From the NCBI RefSeq assembly GCF_026229185.1, contig NZ_JAGGJA010000005.1, positions 62,001 to 126,000 on the forward strand: a stretch of DNA of 64,000 bases, in the 5' to 3' direction. The notes below the pieces were generated by a model. It was not told the DNA's origin. It saw only the letters and a program-made list of their open reading frames with translations, and ran no database searches. Of the stretch, positions 1,555-11,813 are shown in pieces (position 1 is the stretch's first letter; every line of letters begins with the position of its first letter). Source of the stretch: Fodinibius salsisoli (GTDB taxonomy: Bacteria; Bacteroidota; Rhodothermia; Balneolales; Balneolaceae). Position numbers and translations under genes: made by a program.

Positions 1555-1971
1555 ATGGATAAGTTAAAATTAGCAGAACAAACGATTATAACCGACGAGT
1601 ATCCCGAGTTTAAAACCGGTGATACGGTAAACGTGCACTATAAAGTGCGTGAAGGAGATAAAGAGCGTATTCAGAAATTTGAAGGGCTCGTAATCTCTCG
1701 TCGTGGATCAGGGGCCAACCAGACGTTTATGGTTCGGAAAGTATCAGCCGGAAATATCGGTGTGGAACGTATTTTTCCACTCTTTTCACCATTTATTGCC
1801 AAAATTGAGCTCAAAAAGCAGGGCGATATTAAGCGCTCTAAGCTCTATTACCTCCGTGAACGACAAGGTAAGTCCGCTCGTATCAAGGAGAAGGATCAGA
1901 ATCAGAGCAGGGTTAGAGAGTTAAACCGCGAGGCTGAAGAACGAGCTAAAGCCGCTGATGAAGACGAGTAA
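1555..1971 (+). CDS. rplS: 50S ribosomal protein L19
   Basis: The product is 138 residues. The conserved L19 core covers residues ~10-115 ([57 protein letters not shown]). L19 lies at the 30S-50S interface. A charged tail of ~20 residues ([13 protein letters not shown]) extends past the usual ~115-residue core, matching the acidic tail on S16. This is the last gene of the operon, with a hairpin terminator 30 bases downstream. Confidence 0.96.
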
Positions 1972-2036: not shown

Positions 2037-2152
2037 TAGGTAGGAAGTTTGCCAACTTGTTCAGTAAAAGTTGCTTCTTAGCTGTTTTTGGGCTAATTAA
2101 TCTGTTGATTAGTCATGTAAAAAACTCTGAAATGTGTCTGCCAGCGGACTTT

Positions 2153-3643
2153 ATGAAGGAAAAGGTGTTAAGGATATTCTTTTTTCTTACCGTATTAGCT
2201 GTCATTGGGATAGGTCAGGAAGCTGACGCCCAGATTCAAATACAAGAAGTATGGACCTCGCAGTATCAAAATCTCGGAGTCTACTCATCTCCACGTGTTG
2301 CTGACCTCAACCAGGACGGTACAAAAGATATAATACTTGGTGCAGGTCGGCAGGAGTTTGAAGCTACTGACAGTGCAGTAGTAGCGATAAATGGCATGGA
2401 CGGAAGCATGCTGTGGAATGTAGGGGCCAGAGATCAGATGTTTGGTTCTGCCACTCTATTGGATGTTAGCCAAGACAGTGTCCCGGATATATTCATCAGT
2501 GGACGTTCGGCAGAGCTTAAGGGCATTAATGGGGAGACAGGCAAAGTAATGTGGGAATTTTATGAAGAAAATGATCCCATTCCCAGTGCTAAGGGGTATT
2601 ACAATTTTTACAATCCCCAAGCCATTCCAGATCAAAATGGGGATGGAGTTTCGGACCTCTTAGTATCTAATGGCGGCGATGTAAATGCAGCACCAGATGA
2701 TTCCAACCGTCCACCGGGCTACCTGATGATTATTGATGCCCAAAACGGAACTCTGCTTGCAAAGGCCCCTATGCCGGATGGCAGGGAAACCTATATGTCA
2801 CCAGTCGTAGCACAAATACATCCCGCTGACCAAGAATATACTGTAATTTTTGGAACGGGAGGAGAAACAATCGGAGGGCGCCTTTACCGAACGACAATTG
2901 AAGATGTGATGAGGCAGGATCTTTCAGACGCTATTGTCCTGGATAGCAGCCAAAATAAGGGATACATTGCCCCTCCCGTTTTGGCCGATATTACTGAAGA
3001 TGACTATCTTGATATTATTGCCAATGCCGTTGAAGGCAAAATAATAGCGGTTAATGGCCAAAATAACAGGTCATTATGGTCACAAAAAATACCTGGGGCT
3101 GAGGCCTATAACTCAATCGCCGTGGGCTATTTCAATAAGGACTCTATTCCGGATTTTTTCACCGGATTTTCTAAAGGGGTATGGCCGGATCTTCCGGAAT
3201 CCGACCAATTGATGATTGATGGAAAAACCGGTGATATCGTATTCCAGGATTCGTTGGGTATGCATCAAACCAGCAGTGCGGTGGTCGCTGATTTTAATAG
3301 CGACGGATTTGATGATGGACTGATGAGTATCAACATTGCAATTATTAAAAAGCAAATATTAAAGTTCTACCACAATTTGCTGGTTGTCTTCGACTTTAAA
3401 AGTGGCAAGACCTATCAGCTAACGGATTATGCTCCGGGAGTTAACTTGGCTTCAACGCCCTGGGTGGGTGACCTGGACGATGATGGGAAACTTGATATCA
3501 TTTACTGTAGTCTCACTGAAGACAGGAATATCTTTGCAATGGATGGCTTTAAGGTCTCACGGATCAGTACGAATATTAAGCTCAAGCATGCTGTGCGTTG
3601 GGGAGCCTATATGGGCAGTGGATATAACGGGATATTTAAATAA
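2153..3643 (+). CDS. Secreted FG-GAP/VCBS repeat protein
   Basis: This is a predicted exported beta-propeller protein of 496 residues. Starting at 2153 gives an ordinary signal peptide (MKEKVLRIFFFLTVLAV... ending near ADAQ). The frame stays open upstream to 2057, but a start there would put 32 residues ahead of the signal peptide. The mature part carries repeated calcium-site-like Asp-rich loops, such as DLNQDGTKD, DQNGDGVSD, DFNSDGFDD and DLDDDGKLD, each followed by a hydrophobic strand. This is the integrin-alpha-like FG-GAP pattern. Such proteins are usually surface or periplasmic binding proteins, and the ligand is unknown. It stands alone and converges with the metalloprotease gene 15 bases downstream. 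Confidence 0.75.
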   Translation: MKEKVLRIFFFLTVLAVIGIGQEADAQIQIQEVWTSQYQNLGVYSSPRVADLNQDGTKDIILGAGRQEFEATDSAVVAINGMDGSMLWNVGARDQMFGSATLLDVSQDSVPDIFISGRSAELKGINGETGKVMWEFYEENDPIPSAKGYYNFYNPQAIPDQNGDGVSDLLVSNGGDVNAAPDDSNRPPGYLMIIDAQNGTLLAKAPMPDGRETYMSPVVAQIHPADQEYTVIFGTGGETIGGRLYRTTIEDVMRQDLSDAIVLDSSQNKGYIAPPVLADITEDDYLDIIANAVEGKIIAVNGQNNRSLWSQKIPGAEAYNSIAVGYFNKDSIPDFFTGFSKGVWPDLPESDQLMIDGKTGDIVFQDSLGMHQTSSAVVADFNSDGFDDGLMSINIAIIKKQILKFYHNLLVVFDFKSGKTYQLTDYAPGVNLASTPWVGDLDDDGKLDIIYCSLTEDRNIFAMDGFKVSRISTNIKLKHAVRWGAYMGSGYNGIFK

Positions 3644-3658
3644 TAGCTTTCTTTACCC

Positions 3659-6244
3659 TTATTCATCTTCTAATGCCTTGTTCACCTTAAGCAGCATATA
3701 CTTATAGGAGATTTTGTGATCCCCTTGTTGCGTATCCACTATCTTTTCCAGAATTTCTTTTGTTTTTAGCAACCATTGATAGTAAAGGTGACTCATATCA
3801 GAATTGTTGAAAGACATCCTGGGAAAGAACCCAAAGCCACTGACATCCCCACCTTCTAAAGTATTCGTTCCACTTCTATAAATAAGTGGTATAAAACAGC
3901 TATTAGAAGAATAGAAAGTCGGATCTTTTCCAGTACTCATTGAAGTTGACCTCACCGAAAAGGGGTTCGTATTCGGTACGTTCTCTACCTTGGAGTATGA
4001 GATCAAGAGATCGGTCAGCGTTGACTGCATAGATCGCTTCCCTTCTGATGAAGTTTGCCCCTCCAGCGTCGAGCCCCATACAAAATTGAAAATATCTTTG
4101 ATGAATTCTTTGCGGGTATAGGAATCTGCTGTAGCTTTACTGGCACTGAGGGCAAGTCGGCCGGGGCGCTGTAAAATCAAACTCTGTAAGAAGAATCGCC
4201 GGATATATTCGGCCGGCTGATCATTGATATTATTACTGTTTTTGTCGAGGCTAATCTCATTGAACCACTCCAGGTTTTCGACTGTTTGTAAGATAAAGAG
4301 AGTGGATTCTCGTTGTTTCTGCTCAGGAACAACTTTGTAAGCCGGTAACGGGTCATCAGCATACGTTTCGTACTGATAAATGCCACCAATATTGCGCATT
4401 ACGTGGATAAGCGGCCACACAAAATAGATATTCATAATCCAGTAATGCTGCTGGGTTCTGAAAGATAAATCCTGATCTTCCTGCTTTACCCAGTCGTTAA
4501 CATTATCCAGGATATATTTAAAATTGCTGATAGCATATTGGGCTGTTTTAATAAGATCAGCTCCCAAATCCTCGGCCTGGGCACTCGGATCAATAATCTG
4601 GAGTTGTTGTTTACCGTAACGGTAGCGAGGATCGTCAATTTTGTTGGAAATCCAGCGATCCAGTACCGGAATTTCTTCCTCAGGAGTAGTGGCCTTAAAA
4701 ATAGGAGTGTATAACCATTTGATGGCATACTCATCATAAACACCGAGCTTAGGTGGCATGAGCTTAACCCCACGTTCATGATCTCCGGGTTGGGCCACAA
4801 TGTTAAAACGGGCATAGTCCATAATGGAGGGAGTGGTACCATATCGTTGGGTAAAGGTGGGCGATCGAAGAGAGTCGGTGGGAAAAGCGGAAGAAGCACC
4901 CATGTTATGCATCAGGCCAAGTGTATGCCCCACCTCATGGGCCACGACGTAGCGTAAACCCTTCCCAATTAACTCATCCGGAACCCGGGTGGTGCGCACA
5001 CGCTTATCGGTTGCGGCCGTATATCGAAACATCCAGTTATTGAGCAGGTCGGTTATTCCATGATAGATGTACACGGTGGCACTCAGGATTTCTCCGGACC
5101 GGGGATCGACCCAGGATGGACCCATGGCGTTTTGTTTAGGGGTAGCCGAATACTTGATGCAGCTGTATTTGAGGTTATCCGGATCAAAATTAGGATCGTC
5201 TTTGGGATACATTCGGGTAACGATCGCATTTTTATATCCTATTTTTTCAAACGCCTTATTCCAGTCGTGCACTCCTTTCTTGATGTAGTCAATCCACCGG
5301 TCGGGAAATTGGTTGTCAATATAAAAAGTGATGGGATCGACGGGTTCAACTAATTTACCCCTTTTGAAGGCTTCAATATCTTTGGGTTGTAAATCCCACC
5401 GGTTGGCATAATAGACGTTTTCTGTTCCATTACCCTGAGTTGAATATTGGTTTTGGCGGGTATAAAAAATACCGATACGGGGATCGTTAATACGGGGACG
5501 GGCCGGCTCGTCGGGGAGCAAAATTAATGATCGCTTCATGAGAAAAGTAGCCGGCCGATCATTTTCTATTGAAATTGTACCTGCAAATTTTCGGCTAACA
5601 TCAAAAGACAAATAACTGGACACCGTAATATTATCCTCGTATGCCGTAACATCCGACAACAACGAACGGCTGTTCTTGTAGGTTGAGCTTGTAGATTCAA
5701 ACATCCCATCATTACCGCCATATGGCCCAAAAGGATCAATCGCTTTATTACCGTTCACAAAAAACTTGGTGGCATTGAAAACAAGAGCTGAGCTATCCGG
5801 ACTTTCTGCTTTTATATCAAAAGAAGCTATAATAGGCCCGATATTGCTTTTATCGAGGGCGTTATGGATAGAAGTTGCCGGGGGTGAGGCTTTAGCGGTA
5901 AACCGGGCCTCACGCATGTGGATGGTAGAATCACTCATACTAAAATAGATAGGCAAAGGCTTATTCGGTTGTTCACCGGCCGCCGCATCATTGGGGTTAC
6001 TGGTGGATTCAACAATGGAGCCTACCAGCATTTTTTGCCCAAAGAGTGTCTTCGGAAATTCAAAATAGACGTCTCCATCCATTTTGTGGAGCGTAATCAT
6101 TCCTTCAGTAGTTTCAACCTTTTTATCTTCAAACAGTTTTTCGTAATCGGTCTTTGTCTCCGTTTTATCCTGAGCAAGCAGATCGGGAAGACCACTGAGG
6201 AAAAAAGCACCTATAAGAATTAATATGACTGCAAACCGTTTCAT
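3659..6244 (-). CDS. Exported metzincin-type zinc metalloprotease (DUF5117/DUF4953 family)
   Basis: The product is 861 residues with a cleavable signal peptide (hydrophobic residues ~5-24, cleavage near LLAQ). The catalytic zinc site HEVGHTLGLMH lies at residues 436-446 (ligands H436, H440, H446; general base E437). The Met-turn SIMDY follows with M475. The layout matches the large Bacteroidota zinc-dependent proteases with an N-terminal DUF5118/DUF5117 region and a central DUF4953 catalytic domain. It should act in the periplasm or outside the cell; the substrate is unknown. A diverged, zinc-less paralogue lies 24 bases upstream in the same direction (6269-8971), so the two are probably one transcript. 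Confidence 0.88.
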   Translation of the reverse strand: MKRFAVILILIGAFFLSGLPDLLAQDKTETKTDYEKLFEDKKVETTEGMITLHKMDGDVYFEFPKTLFGQKMLVGSIVESTSNPNDAAAGEQPNKPLPIYFSMSDSTIHMREARFTAKASPPATSIHNALDKSNIGPIIASFDIKAESPDSSALVFNATKFFVNGNKAIDPFGPYGGNDGMFESTSSTYKNSRSLLSDVTAYEDNITVSSYLSFDVSRKFAGTISIENDRPATFLMKRSLILLPDEPARPRINDPRIGIFYTRQNQYSTQGNGTENVYYANRWDLQPKDIEAFKRGKLVEPVDPITFYIDNQFPDRWIDYIKKGVHDWNKAFEKIGYKNAIVTRMYPKDDPNFDPDNLKYSCIKYSATPKQNAMGPSWVDPRSGEILSATVYIYHGITDLLNNWMFRYTAATDKRVRTTRVPDELIGKGLRYVVAHEVGHTLGLMHNMGASSAFPTDSLRSPTFTQRYGTTPSIMDYARFNIVAQPGDHERGVKLMPPKLGVYDEYAIKWLYTPIFKATTPEEEIPVLDRWISNKIDDPRYRYGKQQLQIIDPSAQAEDLGADLIKTAQYAISNFKYILDNVNDWVKQEDQDLSFRTQQHYWIMNIYFVWPLIHVMRNIGGIYQYETYADDPLPAYKVVPEQKQRESTLFILQTVENLEWFNEISLDKNSNNINDQPAEYIRRFFLQSLILQRPGRLALSASKATADSYTRKEFIKDIFNFVWGSTLEGQTSSEGKRSMQSTLTDLLISYSKVENVPNTNPFSVRSTSMSTGKDPTFYSSNSCFIPLIYRSGTNTLEGGDVSGFGFFPRMSFNNSDMSHLYYQWLLKTKEILEKIVDTQQGDHKISYKYMLLKVNKALEDE

Positions 6245-6268
6245 AGTGAAAGCAATAAAATCAGTGCG

Positions 6269-8971
6269 TTAAAGTACTTTTTTAAGTTGATGTAGCAGTA
6301 ACTGGTAGTGAGCTTTGGTTTCTGCATCAGGCATCTGTTCTACTTTATTTTGAAGCAGCGTCTGTACCTTCAGAAGGTATTTATAGCTGATAAGATCTAT
6401 CGAAGGTCCAACAGGGAAATGGATCTGTCCGCCATTGTATGAGGCAGAAACCATACCACTACTTTCATTCTGCCGATATTCCAACGTGGTAGCAACGGAT
6501 GGTTTATTTTGTAGTAATTCAGCTAAAACTATCCGATCGTCTATCATATTTTTGCGCTGGCCTGTAAACGAACGACCTGAACTTAGATTGACGGTACTCG
6601 CTGCTTTCATATCTTCAACCGGGAGTTCACTGGTTTCGATGGTCGTACCCACAAAGGCTTTTTGAAGAGCTATATCCACATCACCAAGTGGCTGACTTTT
6701 CATTGTTTTGCTCCAAACGGATTCATACAGATCCTGCATGGCCAGCGCGGGCGTGTATGGATGAGGTTCTTCTGACAGCTCCGATGACATATAAACCATT
6801 AGTGGTCCCTTCATCAGGAGTTGCACCATTTTTTCACGCAACAAAGCGGATATATCTTCAGTAAGTTCAAAATTTTGAATAATATTATCATCCATCATCC
6901 AATCTAATTGTTGGATTTGATTTAGCAGGAACATATAAGCCTGCCGCTGCTTTTCGCTGGGTACGGACTGAAACCGTGGCCGAGGGTCGCCTTCATAAAT
7001 TGGATTGGAATAAATGCCGCCCACATATTGACCTGTGTTATTTAAATATTGCACATACTGTTGAATAATGGTTTTCCAAAGAGCTTGGCGATAAGAGAAA
7101 TCTTTATCCTCGGTGGAAATCCATTTATTCAGGTTCTGGAGAATATACTTCAAGTTTTTGAGACCGTATTTTGTTGCCTCAACAGCATTGTCTCCCAAAT
7201 CGTTACCTTGGATAGTGGGGTCCTTGATATTAAAGCCTGGCAGCGCATAGCGATATTTAATATCATCCGCCTTTTCGTCCACAAACTTGTTCAAAGTATC
7301 TCTTACCTCCATCTGGGAGTATTTGTCACTGGGAAAATACTGGTAGTTCCATTTGGTTACATAAAAATCGTAAGGACCAAATGGTTTGGAAGTAAGTTGC
7401 ACCCCACGTTTTTTATCACCCGGTTGTGCCACATAATTATACCGGGCATTATCCAGGGTGGAATAGGTGGTTCCAAATTTCTGAGTGAAGGTAGGTGAAC
7501 GCAGAGAGTCTACATCAATAGAAGCAGAGGCAGCTCCGTTTGGTTTAAAACCCAAGCGGAAACCTACCTGTCGGCGGACATGGTACCGGATGTCGTCTTG
7601 AATATATTCTTTTGGTATATGCCTGCTTCGAACTTCTGGATCCGTTGCCCCGGTTTGCACGAACCGCTGATGGGCAATTCGCTTGACCAAATCATGGTAA
7701 ATATATATTGATCCATTCAGGACTTCTCCACTTCGCGGGTCTATCCAGGAAGAGCCGGTAATCCGCTGGGCCGTATTGGGTACATAACGAACCACGCTGT
7801 ATTTAATATTATCCGGATCAAATTGAGGGTCGCTTTGGGGATACTCTTTGGCTTGAATAGCATTCTTAAAACCGATCTCTTCAAAGGTTTCATTCCAGTC
7901 TTCAATGCCTTGTTTGATCGCTTCTTTCCACTGCTCAGGGAAGTCTTTGTCGACATAAAATGTAATGGGGTCGGTTGCTTCTACCAACGTCCCTTGCTGA
8001 TACGCTTCAATATCTTTGGGTACCAGGCGAAACCGGCGGGCAAAATGTATGTTTTCTGCTTTGTTAAGGGGATTGTCATATTCATATTTCTGGATGGTAG
8101 CTATACCAATTCGTGAATCCCCAATACGTGGTTGCATGGGCTTTTCCGGTAATAGGAGAAATGTTCTTGTCATAAGGGCCGTAAAGGGCTGCTCTTCTCT
8201 TACGGTATTACCGCTGTTCGATTTTAGGTCATACTCATAAGACAAATGGCTTTTGATACTTATATTGTCTTCAAACGCTTTGAATTCCCCCAGAAAGGAT
8301 CGTCCACTTTTAAATCGGGTGGAATAATCAACCCCGGAAGGTAAGTTCATGCCATCCTTATTGAAGGGAGAAAGGTTTTTATTATCACGGCTAAAATAAT
8401 TCGAAACTTCGATGAGCGCGGAAGAATGGTCGTCATTATAGGCTTCGATGTCCCATTTTTTAATAATTGCCCCCATGCTGTTTTTGGCAAGTGCATTTTG
8501 CAAGCGCTCAAACTGTGGTTGTTCAGGTGTTATTGAGTTCCGTTCTATCTTCCGAAGAAGGATGGTTGAATCGACCCGACCGAACGTCAAATGCAGAGGA
8601 GGATGTGGTTGCGCTCCGAGAGCTCCAAAATCATTATCGCTGGTTTCTGATATAGTAGATCCCAACAGCATCTCACGTCCCAAAAGAGTAAAGGGAATTT
8701 CCAGATAGAGTTTCTTCTTCACCTTGTAGAGATTCATCAGGCCTTTTTCCGTTTGCTCGGCCTTGGAAACAATTTTTTCGTAGAGCGTCTTTTTATCCTC
8801 TTCTTTTTCGTTGGATTTCGCCGAAGTGCTATCGGCTGATGTAGTATCAGCTTCGATAGTCTTTTTAGGCTCTGCTTTTCTACTTGCAGGCTGTGTTGTT
8901 TGGCAAGCTGTGATTAGCATAAACAGCAATCCAAGTATTCCGGCAAGTATGGTAGGTATGGATTTTTTCAT
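6269..8971 (-). CDS. Lipoprotein paralogue of the metzincin protease with a destroyed zinc site (probable pseudoenzyme)
   Basis: The product is 900 residues with a lipoprotein signal (LITAC, lipidated Cys23) and a Ser/Thr/Lys/Glu-rich linker. It aligns with the 3659-6244 product along its length (shared blocks: DPITFYVD, SWIDPRSGEVL, DSLRSPTFTQ, YKYLLKVQ). The catalytic motif is RQVGFRLGFKP at residues 467-477. Every catalytic position has changed: H to R467, E to Q468, H to F471, H to P477. The Met-turn methionine is Leu506. The frame is intact, so this is not a decaying pseudogene. Inference: it is a non-catalytic partner, inhibitor or binding protein anchored to the outer membrane and made with the active protease. 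Confidence 0.8.
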   Translation of the reverse strand: MKKSIPTILAGILGLLFMLITACQTTQPASRKAEPKKTIEADTTSADSTSAKSNEKEEDKKTLYEKIVSKAEQTEKGLMNLYKVKKKLYLEIPFTLLGREMLLGSTISETSDNDFGALGAQPHPPLHLTFGRVDSTILLRKIERNSITPEQPQFERLQNALAKNSMGAIIKKWDIEAYNDDHSSALIEVSNYFSRDNKNLSPFNKDGMNLPSGVDYSTRFKSGRSFLGEFKAFEDNISIKSHLSYEYDLKSNSGNTVREEQPFTALMTRTFLLLPEKPMQPRIGDSRIGIATIQKYEYDNPLNKAENIHFARRFRLVPKDIEAYQQGTLVEATDPITFYVDKDFPEQWKEAIKQGIEDWNETFEEIGFKNAIQAKEYPQSDPQFDPDNIKYSVVRYVPNTAQRITGSSWIDPRSGEVLNGSIYIYHDLVKRIAHQRFVQTGATDPEVRSRHIPKEYIQDDIRYHVRRQVGFRLGFKPNGAASASIDVDSLRSPTFTQKFGTTYSTLDNARYNYVAQPGDKKRGVQLTSKPFGPYDFYVTKWNYQYFPSDKYSQMEVRDTLNKFVDEKADDIKYRYALPGFNIKDPTIQGNDLGDNAVEATKYGLKNLKYILQNLNKWISTEDKDFSYRQALWKTIIQQYVQYLNNTGQYVGGIYSNPIYEGDPRPRFQSVPSEKQRQAYMFLLNQIQQLDWMMDDNIIQNFELTEDISALLREKMVQLLMKGPLMVYMSSELSEEPHPYTPALAMQDLYESVWSKTMKSQPLGDVDIALQKAFVGTTIETSELPVEDMKAASTVNLSSGRSFTGQRKNMIDDRIVLAELLQNKPSVATTLEYRQNESSGMVSASYNGGQIHFPVGPSIDLISYKYLLKVQTLLQNKVEQMPDAETKAHYQLLLHQLKKVL

Positions 8972-9137: not shown

Positions 9138-9695
9138 TTAACCGGGTTGTTTTTCAGCCTCATATACCGTCATAGGAGGGATATTACGCCATTCCCAATC
9201 GGTTTGAACATTCCCAAAAGCCTTGTGCAACGCGTCTTCCAGATGACCAGATGTTTGATAGGCTAAAAACTTTCCACCTTCTTTGAGTAGGTTTATACTT
9301 TGATCTAAAACCGATGCTTTAGTTTCTTCATCCAAAAATGAAAATGGAATACCCGATATAATATAATCGGTATTGCCTATAAGCTGATCAGGCAACAAGT
9401 CGGTCACATATTCTACACTTTGATCATAAAATGAAAGCCGTGGATCGTTTATCTCCGTTAACTTTTTAAAGAGTAGTTCATTGGTTTCAAAAAGATGAAG
9501 CTGAGAATTGGGCGTCATCTTAGGAAGCAGAAAACGCGCATATACACCAGAACCAGCTCCATACTCTACAATCGTCAGGTCCTCATTAAAATTGATAGGG
9601 CTACAGACCCGACGCATACAAAATTTAGAAGTTGGCGTAACCGAAGCTACATCCTTGTCCTTGAAAAAGCTTTTTAAATAGGTAAGGGTACTCAT
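9138..9695 (-). CDS. SAM-dependent methyltransferase, phospholipid N-methyltransferase-like
   Basis: The product is 185 residues in a class I methyltransferase fold. SAM motif I is VEYGAGSGVYARFL (~residues 42-55), and motif II acidic residue is LHLFETNE. A motif IV-like IISGIPFSFL follows, and the C-terminus has NIPPMTVYEAEK. The GxPFSxL motif and the PP..VY ending resemble the PmtA/rRNA adenine dimethylase-like phospholipid methyltransferases, which convert phosphatidylethanolamine to methylated forms. KsgA-type RNA methyltransferase is less likely because the protein is short and lacks the C-terminal domain. The gene sits 69 bases downstream of uvrB on the same strand. Confidence 0.65.
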   Translation of the reverse strand: MSTLTYLKSFFKDKDVASVTPTSKFCMRRVCSPINFNEDLTIVEYGAGSGVYARFLLPKMTPNSQLHLFETNELLFKKLTEINDPRLSFYDQSVEYVTDLLPDQLIGNTDYIISGIPFSFLDEETKASVLDQSINLLKEGGKFLAYQTSGHLEDALHKAFGNVQTDWEWRNIPPMTVYEAEKQPG

Positions 9696-9764: not shown

Positions 9765-11813
9765 CTAAAGCTCGTCTTCGAGTTGTTCTATCTGGTCACG
9801 AATACGGGCCGCCTCTTCGAATTCCATATTTTTAGCGGCCGTCTTCATAGTGTCGTACAGGTACTCTAAAAAATTCTCCTTATCATCGAAAGTAACTTCT
9901 TTCATGGCTGGATTCGCCTGATACTTGATGCCTTCCTCGGCTACTTTTATCGTTTCCAGAGCTTCTTGCTCTTCGCCGTCTTCATCTTCAAGATCAAAGC
10001 TCCGTGAAGAGATCAGCGCCGGATCAACTAATGGTTTCAATTCTTTTTCGATCGTCTTCGGCGTAATGCCGTGCTCTTCGTTATATTCTTTCTGGATTTT
10101 GCGCCGTCGTTCGGTCTCATCAATAACGGTACGCATACTATCGGTAATTTTATCGGCGTACATAATGGCTTTGCCGTCAACGTTACGGGCCGCACGGCCG
10201 ACAATCTGGAACAGCGAGGTCTCTGAGCGGAGGAAGCCTTCTTTGTCAGCATCCAGTATAGCAACTAAGCTGAGTTCGGGAATGTCGATACCCTCCCGCA
10301 ACAAGTTGATACCAACGAGGACATCAAAATCGCCTCGACGAAACTTGAAAAGTACCTCCACACGTTCCATAGCACTCAGTTCACTATGCATGTAAGCAGC
10401 TGAGATGCCCACTTTTTTAAGATACTCACTCAGTTCTTCACTGAGTCTTTTCGTTAGCGTAATACAAAGTACACGGTCACCCTTTTCAACTCTTTTGCGG
10501 ATTTCATCCAGCAAATCATCAATCTGGTTTTCTACAGGACGTACTTCTATTTCAGGTTCCATCAGTCCGGTAGGACGTACAATTTGCTCCACAAAAACGC
10601 CACCACTTTTTTCCAGCTCATAATCACTTGGCGTAGCACTTACAAAGATAGCCTGATTGGTAACGCTCTCCCACTCGTCAAAGGTGAGTGGGCGGTTATC
10701 CATTGCGGAGGGAAGGCGAAAACCGTGTTCAACAAGCTCTGTCTTGCGGGACCGGTCGCCTCCGTACATGGCCGAAATCTGTGGCACCGTCTGGTGACTT
10801 TCGTCTACAACGAGCATGAAATCATCAGGGAAATAGTCAAACAAGCAGTAAGGACGTTCGCCCGGCTTTCGATTACTGAGGTACCGGGAATAGTTTTCAA
10901 TGCCCGAGCAGTAACCGATCTCCTGCATCATCTCAATATCAAATAAGGTTCGTTGCTCCAGTCGTTTTGCTTCAAGGTGTCTGCCTTCGTCTGTGAGCGT
11001 ACCAATACGCCAGTTGAGCTCATCCCGAATTTGATCAATGGCCTGCTCTAACCGGCTTTGCGTAGTCACATAGTGAGAAGCAGGATAGATATGAAATTCC
11101 TCTACCTGTTCCAGAACATTACCAGAATCGGTATCTACAATTTCCATCTTCTCAATTTCATCGCCCCAGAAAGAGATCCGGAGTCCATCTTCGGCATAAG
11201 CAGGATACAGATCCACCACATCGCCACGTACCCGGAATGTTCCGCGGGTAAATTCACGATCATTGCGGGTGTAGTGTAGGTCCACCAGATCGTACAGCAG
11301 TTTATTACGCGGGATCTCCATGCCGGTCTTAAGCTTGATGATCAGCTTTGCATACTCAGAAGGCGATCCGATACCGTAAATACAGCTGACCGATGATACG
11401 ATAATGACATCACGCCGCCCGGAAAGTAGTGAGCTGGTGGCCCGGAGCCGCAGTCGCTGAATTTCATCGTTGATGGACAAATCTTTTTCAATATATTTAT
11501 CCTGCGAAGAGAGGTAGGCTTCCGGCTGATAGTAATCGTAATAGGAGATAAAAAACTCCACCCGGTTATTGGGAAAGAAGTCACTGAGCTCGCGATAGAG
11601 CTGTGCGGCCAGCGTCTTGTTATGACTCATAACCAATGTCGGCCGCTCTACCTGGTCAATGACATCCGCAACGGTTCGCGTCTTTCCGGAACCGGTAATT
11701 CCCAGCAGTGTTTGGTACTGATCACCATTCTGGAGGCCCTCTACCAACTCCTTAATAGCTTTGGGTTGATCCCCCGCAGGTGGCCAGGGCGACTGTAGAT
11801 CAAAATGAGACAT
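9765..11813 (-). CDS. uvrB: Excinuclease ABC subunit B
   Basis: The product is 682 residues, the usual UvrB length. It is the damage-verifying helicase-like subunit of nucleotide excision repair, working with UvrA and UvrC. Walker A is GITGSGKT (38-45). The beta-hairpin region contains YYDYYQPEAY, Walker B is VVDESH, and helicase motif VI contains QIVGRAARN. The C-terminal UVR coiled coil (EFEEAARIRDQIEQLE) binds UvrC. It is followed on the same strand by the methyltransferase gene. The start ATG at 11813 agrees with the family N-terminus (F.L..PW.PAGDQP.AI). Confidence 0.97.
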   Translation of the reverse strand: MSHFDLQSPWPPAGDQPKAIKELVEGLQNGDQYQTLLGITGSGKTRTVADVIDQVERPTLVMSHNKTLAAQLYRELSDFFPNNRVEFFISYYDYYQPEAYLSSQDKYIEKDLSINDEIQRLRLRATSSLLSGRRDVIIVSSVSCIYGIGSPSEYAKLIIKLKTGMEIPRNKLLYDLVDLHYTRNDREFTRGTFRVRGDVVDLYPAYAEDGLRISFWGDEIEKMEIVDTDSGNVLEQVEEFHIYPASHYVTTQSRLEQAIDQIRDELNWRIGTLTDEGRHLEAKRLEQRTLFDIEMMQEIGYCSGIENYSRYLSNRKPGERPYCLFDYFPDDFMLVVDESHQTVPQISAMYGGDRSRKTELVEHGFRLPSAMDNRPLTFDEWESVTNQAIFVSATPSDYELEKSGGVFVEQIVRPTGLMEPEIEVRPVENQIDDLLDEIRKRVEKGDRVLCITLTKRLSEELSEYLKKVGISAAYMHSELSAMERVEVLFKFRRGDFDVLVGINLLREGIDIPELSLVAILDADKEGFLRSETSLFQIVGRAARNVDGKAIMYADKITDSMRTVIDETERRRKIQKEYNEEHGITPKTIEKELKPLVDPALISSRSFDLEDEDGEEQEALETIKVAEEGIKYQANPAMKEVTFDDKENFLEYLYDTMKTAAKNMEFEEAARIRDQIEQLEDEL

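Follow-up and report, generated by a model that had tools for sequence, protein, structure and literature searches.

A recurrent pairing of live and catalytically dead metzincin paralogues, with roles swapped between two genomes of one genus

Two adjacent metzincin genes, one with and one without catalytic residues

The window, that is the whole stretch of 64,000 nucleotides of Fodinibius salsisoli DNA analysed here, contains two adjacent genes for proteins with the domain order DUF5118, DUF5117, DUF4953. According to reading frames, profile matches and alignment, the first of them, gene A (6269..8971, 900 aa), codes for a dead member of these Met-zincins and the second, gene B (3659..6244, 861 aa), for its live paralogue. 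Both genes lie on the minus strand, as do all features within them given below, and both frames are intact. The stop codon of A and the start of B are separated by 24 bases (6245..6268), and a simple consensus scan found no terminator-like site in this gap. Judged by the short distance and the common strand, A and B are probably expressed jointly. The pair is flanked by rplS (1555..1971, plus strand; name from reading) on one side and by a methyltransferase-like gene (9138..9695, minus strand; name from reading) on the other, followed by uvrB (9765-11813).

Both proteins match PF17162, PF17148 and PF16313 above the curated cut-offs. For PF16313, with a cut-off of 24.2 bits, the scores are 249.1 bits for A and 313 bits for B, and family matching alone would label dead members as proteases. 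NCBIfam yielded no family for A and none for B. Identity between the two proteins is 35% across 830 columns. An active PF16313 member requires the motif HExxHxxGxxH and the Met-turn Met. B possesses both, in the zinc site HEVGHTLGLMH (H436-H446; 4907..4939) and the Met-turn SIMDY (4814..4828), whereas A has RQVGFRLGFKP (7541..7573) and STLDN (7448..7462) at these places; opposite B's HEVGHTLGLMHN...SIMDYARF the alignment puts RQVGFRLGFKPN...STLDNARY of A. A has therefore lost its three zinc ligands along with the catalytic Glu (R467, Q468, F471, P477) and carries Leu506 in place of the Met-turn Met; these are the very losses which the initial annotation had listed, and the alignment confirms them. 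In addition, Asn508 stands for the Tyr of the Met-turn. Inspection by eye also bears out its statement that one protein is a lipoprotein and the other has a cleavable signal: the signal peptide of A (8903..8971) ends in a lipobox-like LITAC, whose Cys23 is the sole Cys in A, and B starts with an ordinary signal peptide of the cleavable type (6170..6244). As a separate observation, likewise by eye, lipoprotein-like starts occur in both A proteins of the genus that we read (window 8903-8971; L036 6771-6900) and in neither B, whichever of the partners is dead. Many members from Bacteroidales carry a lysine-rich stretch behind the signal peptide (seen by eye, uncounted).

When the DNA of A was mutated at random, 48 of 500 simulated copies were still open at 0.02 changes per base and none of 500 at 0.05. 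Therefore, the intact frame of A together with its lost site is more than chance or error. Conservation in at least 95% of the aligned live relatives marks 127 columns, of which A has kept 100, compared to 116 in B and 118 in the A protein of a second genome of the genus (G011, see below). The losses are clustered: within the segment matching B 360-600, the bounds of which were chosen after the losses had been seen, A has lost 24 of 75 conserved columns, against 3 of 52 outside (Fisher p 3e-4), and the dead B protein of G011 shows the same split (26 of 75 inside, 5 of 52 outside, p 1e-3). The DSLRSPTFTQ block is retained in A, as had been noticed initially along with the open frame of 900 aa. 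A relocated zinc site, which would have spoken against the idea of a zinc-less protein, was looked for in the sequence by the positions of His and Cys, and none is offered: A has 13 His, but none between 464 and 737, and across 25 dead rows a His is shared by 60% or more at just two columns (B 53 and 846) and a Cys at none.

AlphaFold models were obtained for A (m20dfbb0cbd66, mean pLDDT 80.1, pTM 0.81) and B (m78a6694adf46, mean pLDDT 82.7, pTM 0.85). The catalytic domain of B has the metzincin fold, with many matrix metalloproteinase chains aligning over 257-516 (Z 8-9, rmsd about 3, 140-150 aligned); karilysin (2xs4_A) matches 257-514 with Z 9.3, rmsd 3.1 and 146 aligned residues. The top structural row is chain 4l6t_A (Z 10.5, rmsd 3.5, 191 aligned), which we take to be a metzincin; unrelated helical rows of similar Z map to another part of the model. 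For A the best metzincin is myroilysin (5zjk_C, Z 8.6, rmsd 5.2, 153 aligned over 288-546), at a score that unrelated rows reach as well. With either model, Foldseek against the PDB remained without a match at E <= 0.001, and the sequences pointed to no credible solved relative, the best match being a mitoribosomal protein with E 0.016.

Distribution, origin and upkeep of dead copies in the family

When named genomes were scanned with B, 14 loci were confirmed, in Butyricimonas, Sanguibacteroides, Prevotella, a Rikenellaceae MAG and Riemerella. The sample read here comprises every match at E <= 1e-60 from the seven genomes G115-G121, which were reached via named Bacteroidota loci, the five DUF4953 genes of the window genome, the pair of G011 without the further DUF4953 matches of that genome, 28 top-match loci of other genomes (L008-L035), L049 and ten further picked loci; for part of these ten, the remaining matches of the genome were left out of the counts. 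This amounts to 128 family groups, 47 tandem arrays and 81 single genes, L085 counting as two singles. The initial annotation had proposed to count how many family members lack the motif: these are 39 of 107 array members, nine of them from divergent subfamilies and called on partial or divergent frames, and none of the 81 singles. The nine calls belong to the arrays L142-L146, L151 and L156-L158, and in L146 the Met-turn is unaligned. The corresponding Fisher test (p 8e-12) ignores kinship and overstates the support, because many arrays are orthologues in related genomes. All 81 singles read HEHH; 31 of them are L001, L003 and L005 of the window genome and 28 loci of relatives, and as L001-L035 were read with about 1.5 kb of flank each, less at contig ends, a distant partner could be missed there. 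One of the single live copies, L034 (G010:C3:247030-249189), contains one in-frame TAG, so that it is either a broken gene or an assembly error.

A dead copy is present in 38 of the 47 arrays, and an array without any live member does not occur. The most frequent type by far is live-dead (30 arrays), followed by live-live (5), live-live-live (4), live-live-dead (3), live-dead-live (3), live-dead-live-dead-live (1) and dead-live (1); this last one is the window pair, the only array in which the first gene is dead. Neighbours within arrays are close, their stop-to-stop frames being no more than 144 bases apart and overlapping in 26 of 60 cases. Intermediate stages exist, in which the third His alone is lost (HEHN, HEHD) or HEHH is combined with an altered Met-turn Tyr (L081, L130). 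In the latter two loci it is the third gene of an all-live triplet (L081 2792-5413, L130 1441-4062) that has kept HExxHxxGxxH and exchanged the Tyr for Asn (SIMDN), apparently an early stage of site loss; the kin of these third genes in L069, L082 and L127 are dead. With the best 2 to 16 candidates scored per genome, close matches turned up in 1 of 394, 3 of 295, 6 of 56 and 1 of 394 genomes, and pairs of the A/B type are thus rare outside a few lineages. A large expansion of the family was seen in the two Butyricimonas genomes G116 and G120 (48 and 42 matches at E <= 1e-60), where many members lie near SusC/SusD genes.

On a quick tree of 163 rows (39 dead), calculated with the motif columns removed, the live/dead state requires at least eight changes, one of the eight dead groups (seven rows) resting on a fork with 76% support. 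An earlier tree of 112 rows, from which 27 of 139 distinct rows, all single live genes, had been left out, gave five changes forced by starred branches. A single ancient loss was considered and rejected: the AU test, with groups named after the tree had been seen, excludes one clade of all dead copies (p 6e-11) and also one clade of all dead copies except window A (p 0.004). The residues at separate losses differ (RQFP, RQQR, REIY, QIKE, STFY and others). In the NAMGPSW stretch before the zinc helix the dead rows are also altered, the position of N372 of B being changed in 23 of 25 and that of A373 in 22 of 25.

With our own Nei-Gojobori script, for which several synonymous distances exceeded 1, the dN/dS of the four dead orthologue couples similar enough for measurement amounted to 0.105, 0.067, 0.113 and 0.060, at most about twice that of their live partners (0.050, 0.044, 0.079 and 0.084/0.068). 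Thus, the dead copy changes faster than its live partner in three of the four couples and more slowly in one, and all values are far below 1. Four couples of single live genes gave 0.035-0.101, and a live middle gene 0.084. The initial annotation had supposed that selection keeps the fold of A, and had named frameshifts or random decay in relatives as evidence to the contrary. Such decay was looked for, and the dead relatives read have open frames and, where measurable, are under purifying selection (dN/dS 0.06-0.11). For these relatives the supposition holds; for A of the window, whose non-catalytic conserved residues are mostly kept, the nearest relative found is 46-47% identical and synonymous changes are saturated, and it is the conserved columns and the open frame which suggest that A is under constraint as well. 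The pairing of live and dead proteases in this family is recurrent, and under selection where it can be measured.

Patristic distances among 22 A partners and among their 22 B partners (a set without triplets, L068 and the later-fetched pairs) correlate with r 0.87, a value reached in none of 5000 permutations, also when shuffling was done inside genomes only. Inside single genomes the coefficients are 0.96 (7 pairs, p 4e-4), 0.67 (6 pairs, p 0.002) and 0.83 (4 pairs, p 0.04). Therefore, the pairs were largely duplicated as units.

Swapped roles in a congener

Among 58 genomes searched with A, a match better than 1e-130 in this tandem form occurred only in the window genome (G000) and in G011, another genome of the same genus; matches to B at E <= 1e-140 were found in 2 of 92 family genomes. 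In G011 the roles of the two genes are swapped. Its A protein is live (HEIGHTLGFMH, SIMDY) and its B protein dead (RQVGQTLGLTR, SIMDN). Identities are 46-47% between the two A proteins and about 50% between the two B proteins, versus 33-41% across A and B. Quick trees, built without bootstrap, place window A and the live A of G011 as sisters, and likewise window B and the dead B of G011, each with 100% SH-aLRT. The dead copy has the longer branch each time (window A 0.63 versus G011 A 0.42; G011 B 0.57 versus window B 0.36). For the two B genes dN/dS is 0.157 at a synonymous distance of 2.8.

In both genomes the pair occupies the same slot, in the order uvrB, methyltransferase-like gene, pair, rplS, trmD, rimM, rpsP, ffh. 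In nine of ten other genomes of the genus the slot is present but lacks the pair, and the methyltransferase-like gene and rplS are 107 to 3,489 bases apart; in the tenth, G002, rplS lies outside the stretch fetched. In G011 the A gene is preceded by an ECF-sigma-like gene (name from reading), FecR, SusC, SusD, DUF4843 and PKD_2 genes. With the G011 proteins as queries, no gene of this block was found beside the window pair at this locus, and PKD_2 had no match in the window genome. Third-position GC of A and B follows the host (0.42-0.46 in the window, 0.62-0.67 in G011), so neither gene looks newly arrived. The simplest history is a single insertion, after which the window lineage lost the transporter block; two separate insertions into the same slot may also have taken place, because the identity of A and B between the genomes (46-50%) is far below that of uvrB (94%) and rplS (90%). 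Other genes of this region were noted as well. A gene for an FG-GAP/beta-propeller protein lies between rplS and B in the window (2057-3643, plus strand) and was not found in the slot of G011. A live DUF4953 gene, L005 (G000:C39:56466-57383), is located near ffh about 5 kb to the left of the window, and a relative of it, 73-80% identical, is found near uvrB-ffh in 8 of the 10 other genomes of the genus whose stretch was fetched.

Gene conversion, or an exchange of the catalytic segment between A and B, was considered as cause of the reversal and rejected, since in each stretch of 80 columns the G011 protein nearer to window A is A, not B. The columns with a two-by-two pattern agree with orthology in 70 cases, with the swap in 15 and with the likeness within genomes in 12; within B 340-540 these numbers are 19, 8 and 3, where the catalytic residues are necessarily among the swap columns. 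The opposite tendency is seen in three overlapping stretches (B 327-486), where the likeness of window B to the live G011 A (0.60, 0.60, 0.62) equals or exceeds that to the dead G011 B (0.59, 0.54, 0.62). We read this as a constraint common to live copies, but a short exchange into window B may have contributed.

A possible hetero-oligomeric protease and its known counterparts

We lean towards the view that A and B are secreted and combine as the two subunits of a single protease, an obligate hetero-oligomeric metzincin for which one live site would be enough and in which either partner could lose its own. Pairs of this type would have arisen by duplication, with both copies live at first, and both-live pairs are still found. 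The copies would then have become physically interdependent, one live site per complex being sufficient from there on, and either partner could have lost its site and still retained its fold and contacts. Among the remaining live/dead pairs read, the site would have been lost from the second gene, in the window lineage from the first. B would be the catalytic subunit of the window pair and have proteolytic activity, and the lipid anchor of A may tether the complex to the membrane, whichever partner is live. We favour this reading because it explains why in the set read dead copies occur only beside live ones, why the loss happened several times, why either side can be the loser and why it is never both; it also covers the kept conserved residues outside the site and the staying together of the partners. 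Counted against it are the five live-live and four live-live-live arrays, by which site loss is not obligatory, and the 81 live singles, which show that this fold is able to function with no second kind of subunit, unless they are homodimers. Somewhat less assured is the more specific proposal of a secreted metzincin that acts only as hetero-oligomer and whose catalytic role has switched sides between congeners, the catalytic subunit of one being the dead scaffold of the other.

Other functions of the dead copy have to be weighed, among them those of chaperone, inhibitor and substrate-recruiting binder, which the initial annotation had named beside a heterodimer. It could be a surface protein that binds substrate, catching peptides or glycoproteins for the live protease and a neighbouring SusC/SusD porter, as would fit the pairs of G011, L042 (Sanguibacteroides) and L052 (Rikenellaceae MAG), which are preceded by SusC, SusD, DUF4843 and PKD_2 genes. 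However, the window pair persists without such a block at its locus and without a PKD_2 match in its genome, the NAMGPSW residues lost in dead copies fit poorly to peptide binding in the old groove, and although a binding role accounts for the upkeep, the reversal would require this role to switch sides; we regard it as rather unlikely. Still less probable is a regulator of the live partner, be it an inhibitor, a chaperone or a propeptide-like protein. It would agree with the fact that dead copies in the set read always adjoin a live one, but keeping a copy at full length, its N- and C-terminal parts conserved, appears costly for an inhibitor, and the 81 single live genes seem to manage without an adjoining regulator copy. 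Purifying selection on the dead copies of relatives could also mean a new activity unrelated to the live partner; given that there is no alternative conserved His/Cys cluster near the old site, that separate losses brought different residues and that no dead copy was found alone, we consider this very improbable. Least credible is a redundant relic on its way to a pseudogene, since, despite the longer branch of the dead copy in each couple and its higher dN/dS in three of four, the frames are intact, the dN/dS of relatives is about 0.1 or less, the damage is clustered in the catalytic segment and none of the neutral simulations stayed open at 0.05 changes per base.

If the hetero-oligomeric protease exists, it provides a natural test of constructive neutral evolution, mutual dependence coming first and the loss of either site afterwards, and the single-copy relatives are predicted to be homodimers that need one site at a time. 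The reversal between congeners helps to separate the case in which the dead partner has a special job from that in which either may lose its site, which usually is hard to test.

By profile, A and B belong to the PF16313 DUF4953 Met-zincins with DUF5117/DUF5118, A without the catalytic residues; with karilysin and the matrix metalloproteinases B shares the fold of the catalytic domain only. In the open-licence PMC literature we found no paper naming DUF5117, DUF4953, PF16313, PF17148 or PF17162, and nothing on such live/dead pairs among the matches listed. Zinc-less metzincins are known from the ADAM pseudopeptidases, where ADAM1 and ADAM2 form a heterodimer (PMC11266112), but these are animal cell-surface proteins and not bacterial tandem pairs with a live copy. 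More similar in arrangement are MPP alpha/beta and the bacterial M16B peptidases, which consist of homologous live and zinc-less subunits, in the bacterial case from a two-gene operon; the zinc-less subunit is essential in MPP, and the section cited describes no reversal of the live subunit (PMC11266112). However, these belong to the HxxEH family M16 and are not metzincins, and no M16 family was among the Pfam matches of A or B at E <= 0.001. TldD and TldE, which are cytoplasmic, likewise combine a live and a metal-less homologue, but differ by an HExxxH motif with a remote Cys ligand. Their activity was seen only with both proteins present, and the paper reports that they have no structural likeness to other known proteins (PMC5810440). 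Being encoded by neighbouring homologues, of which just one retains the metal ligands, A and B fit this live/dead arrangement as far as it is known here from the genes. The pair may well work like MPP or TldD/TldE, but belongs to neither, being of a different protein family. Live/dead pairs have thus been known for M16 and TldD/TldE, and here they appear in a large family of secreted metzincins, with repeated losses and with dead copies seen only beside live ones in the set read.
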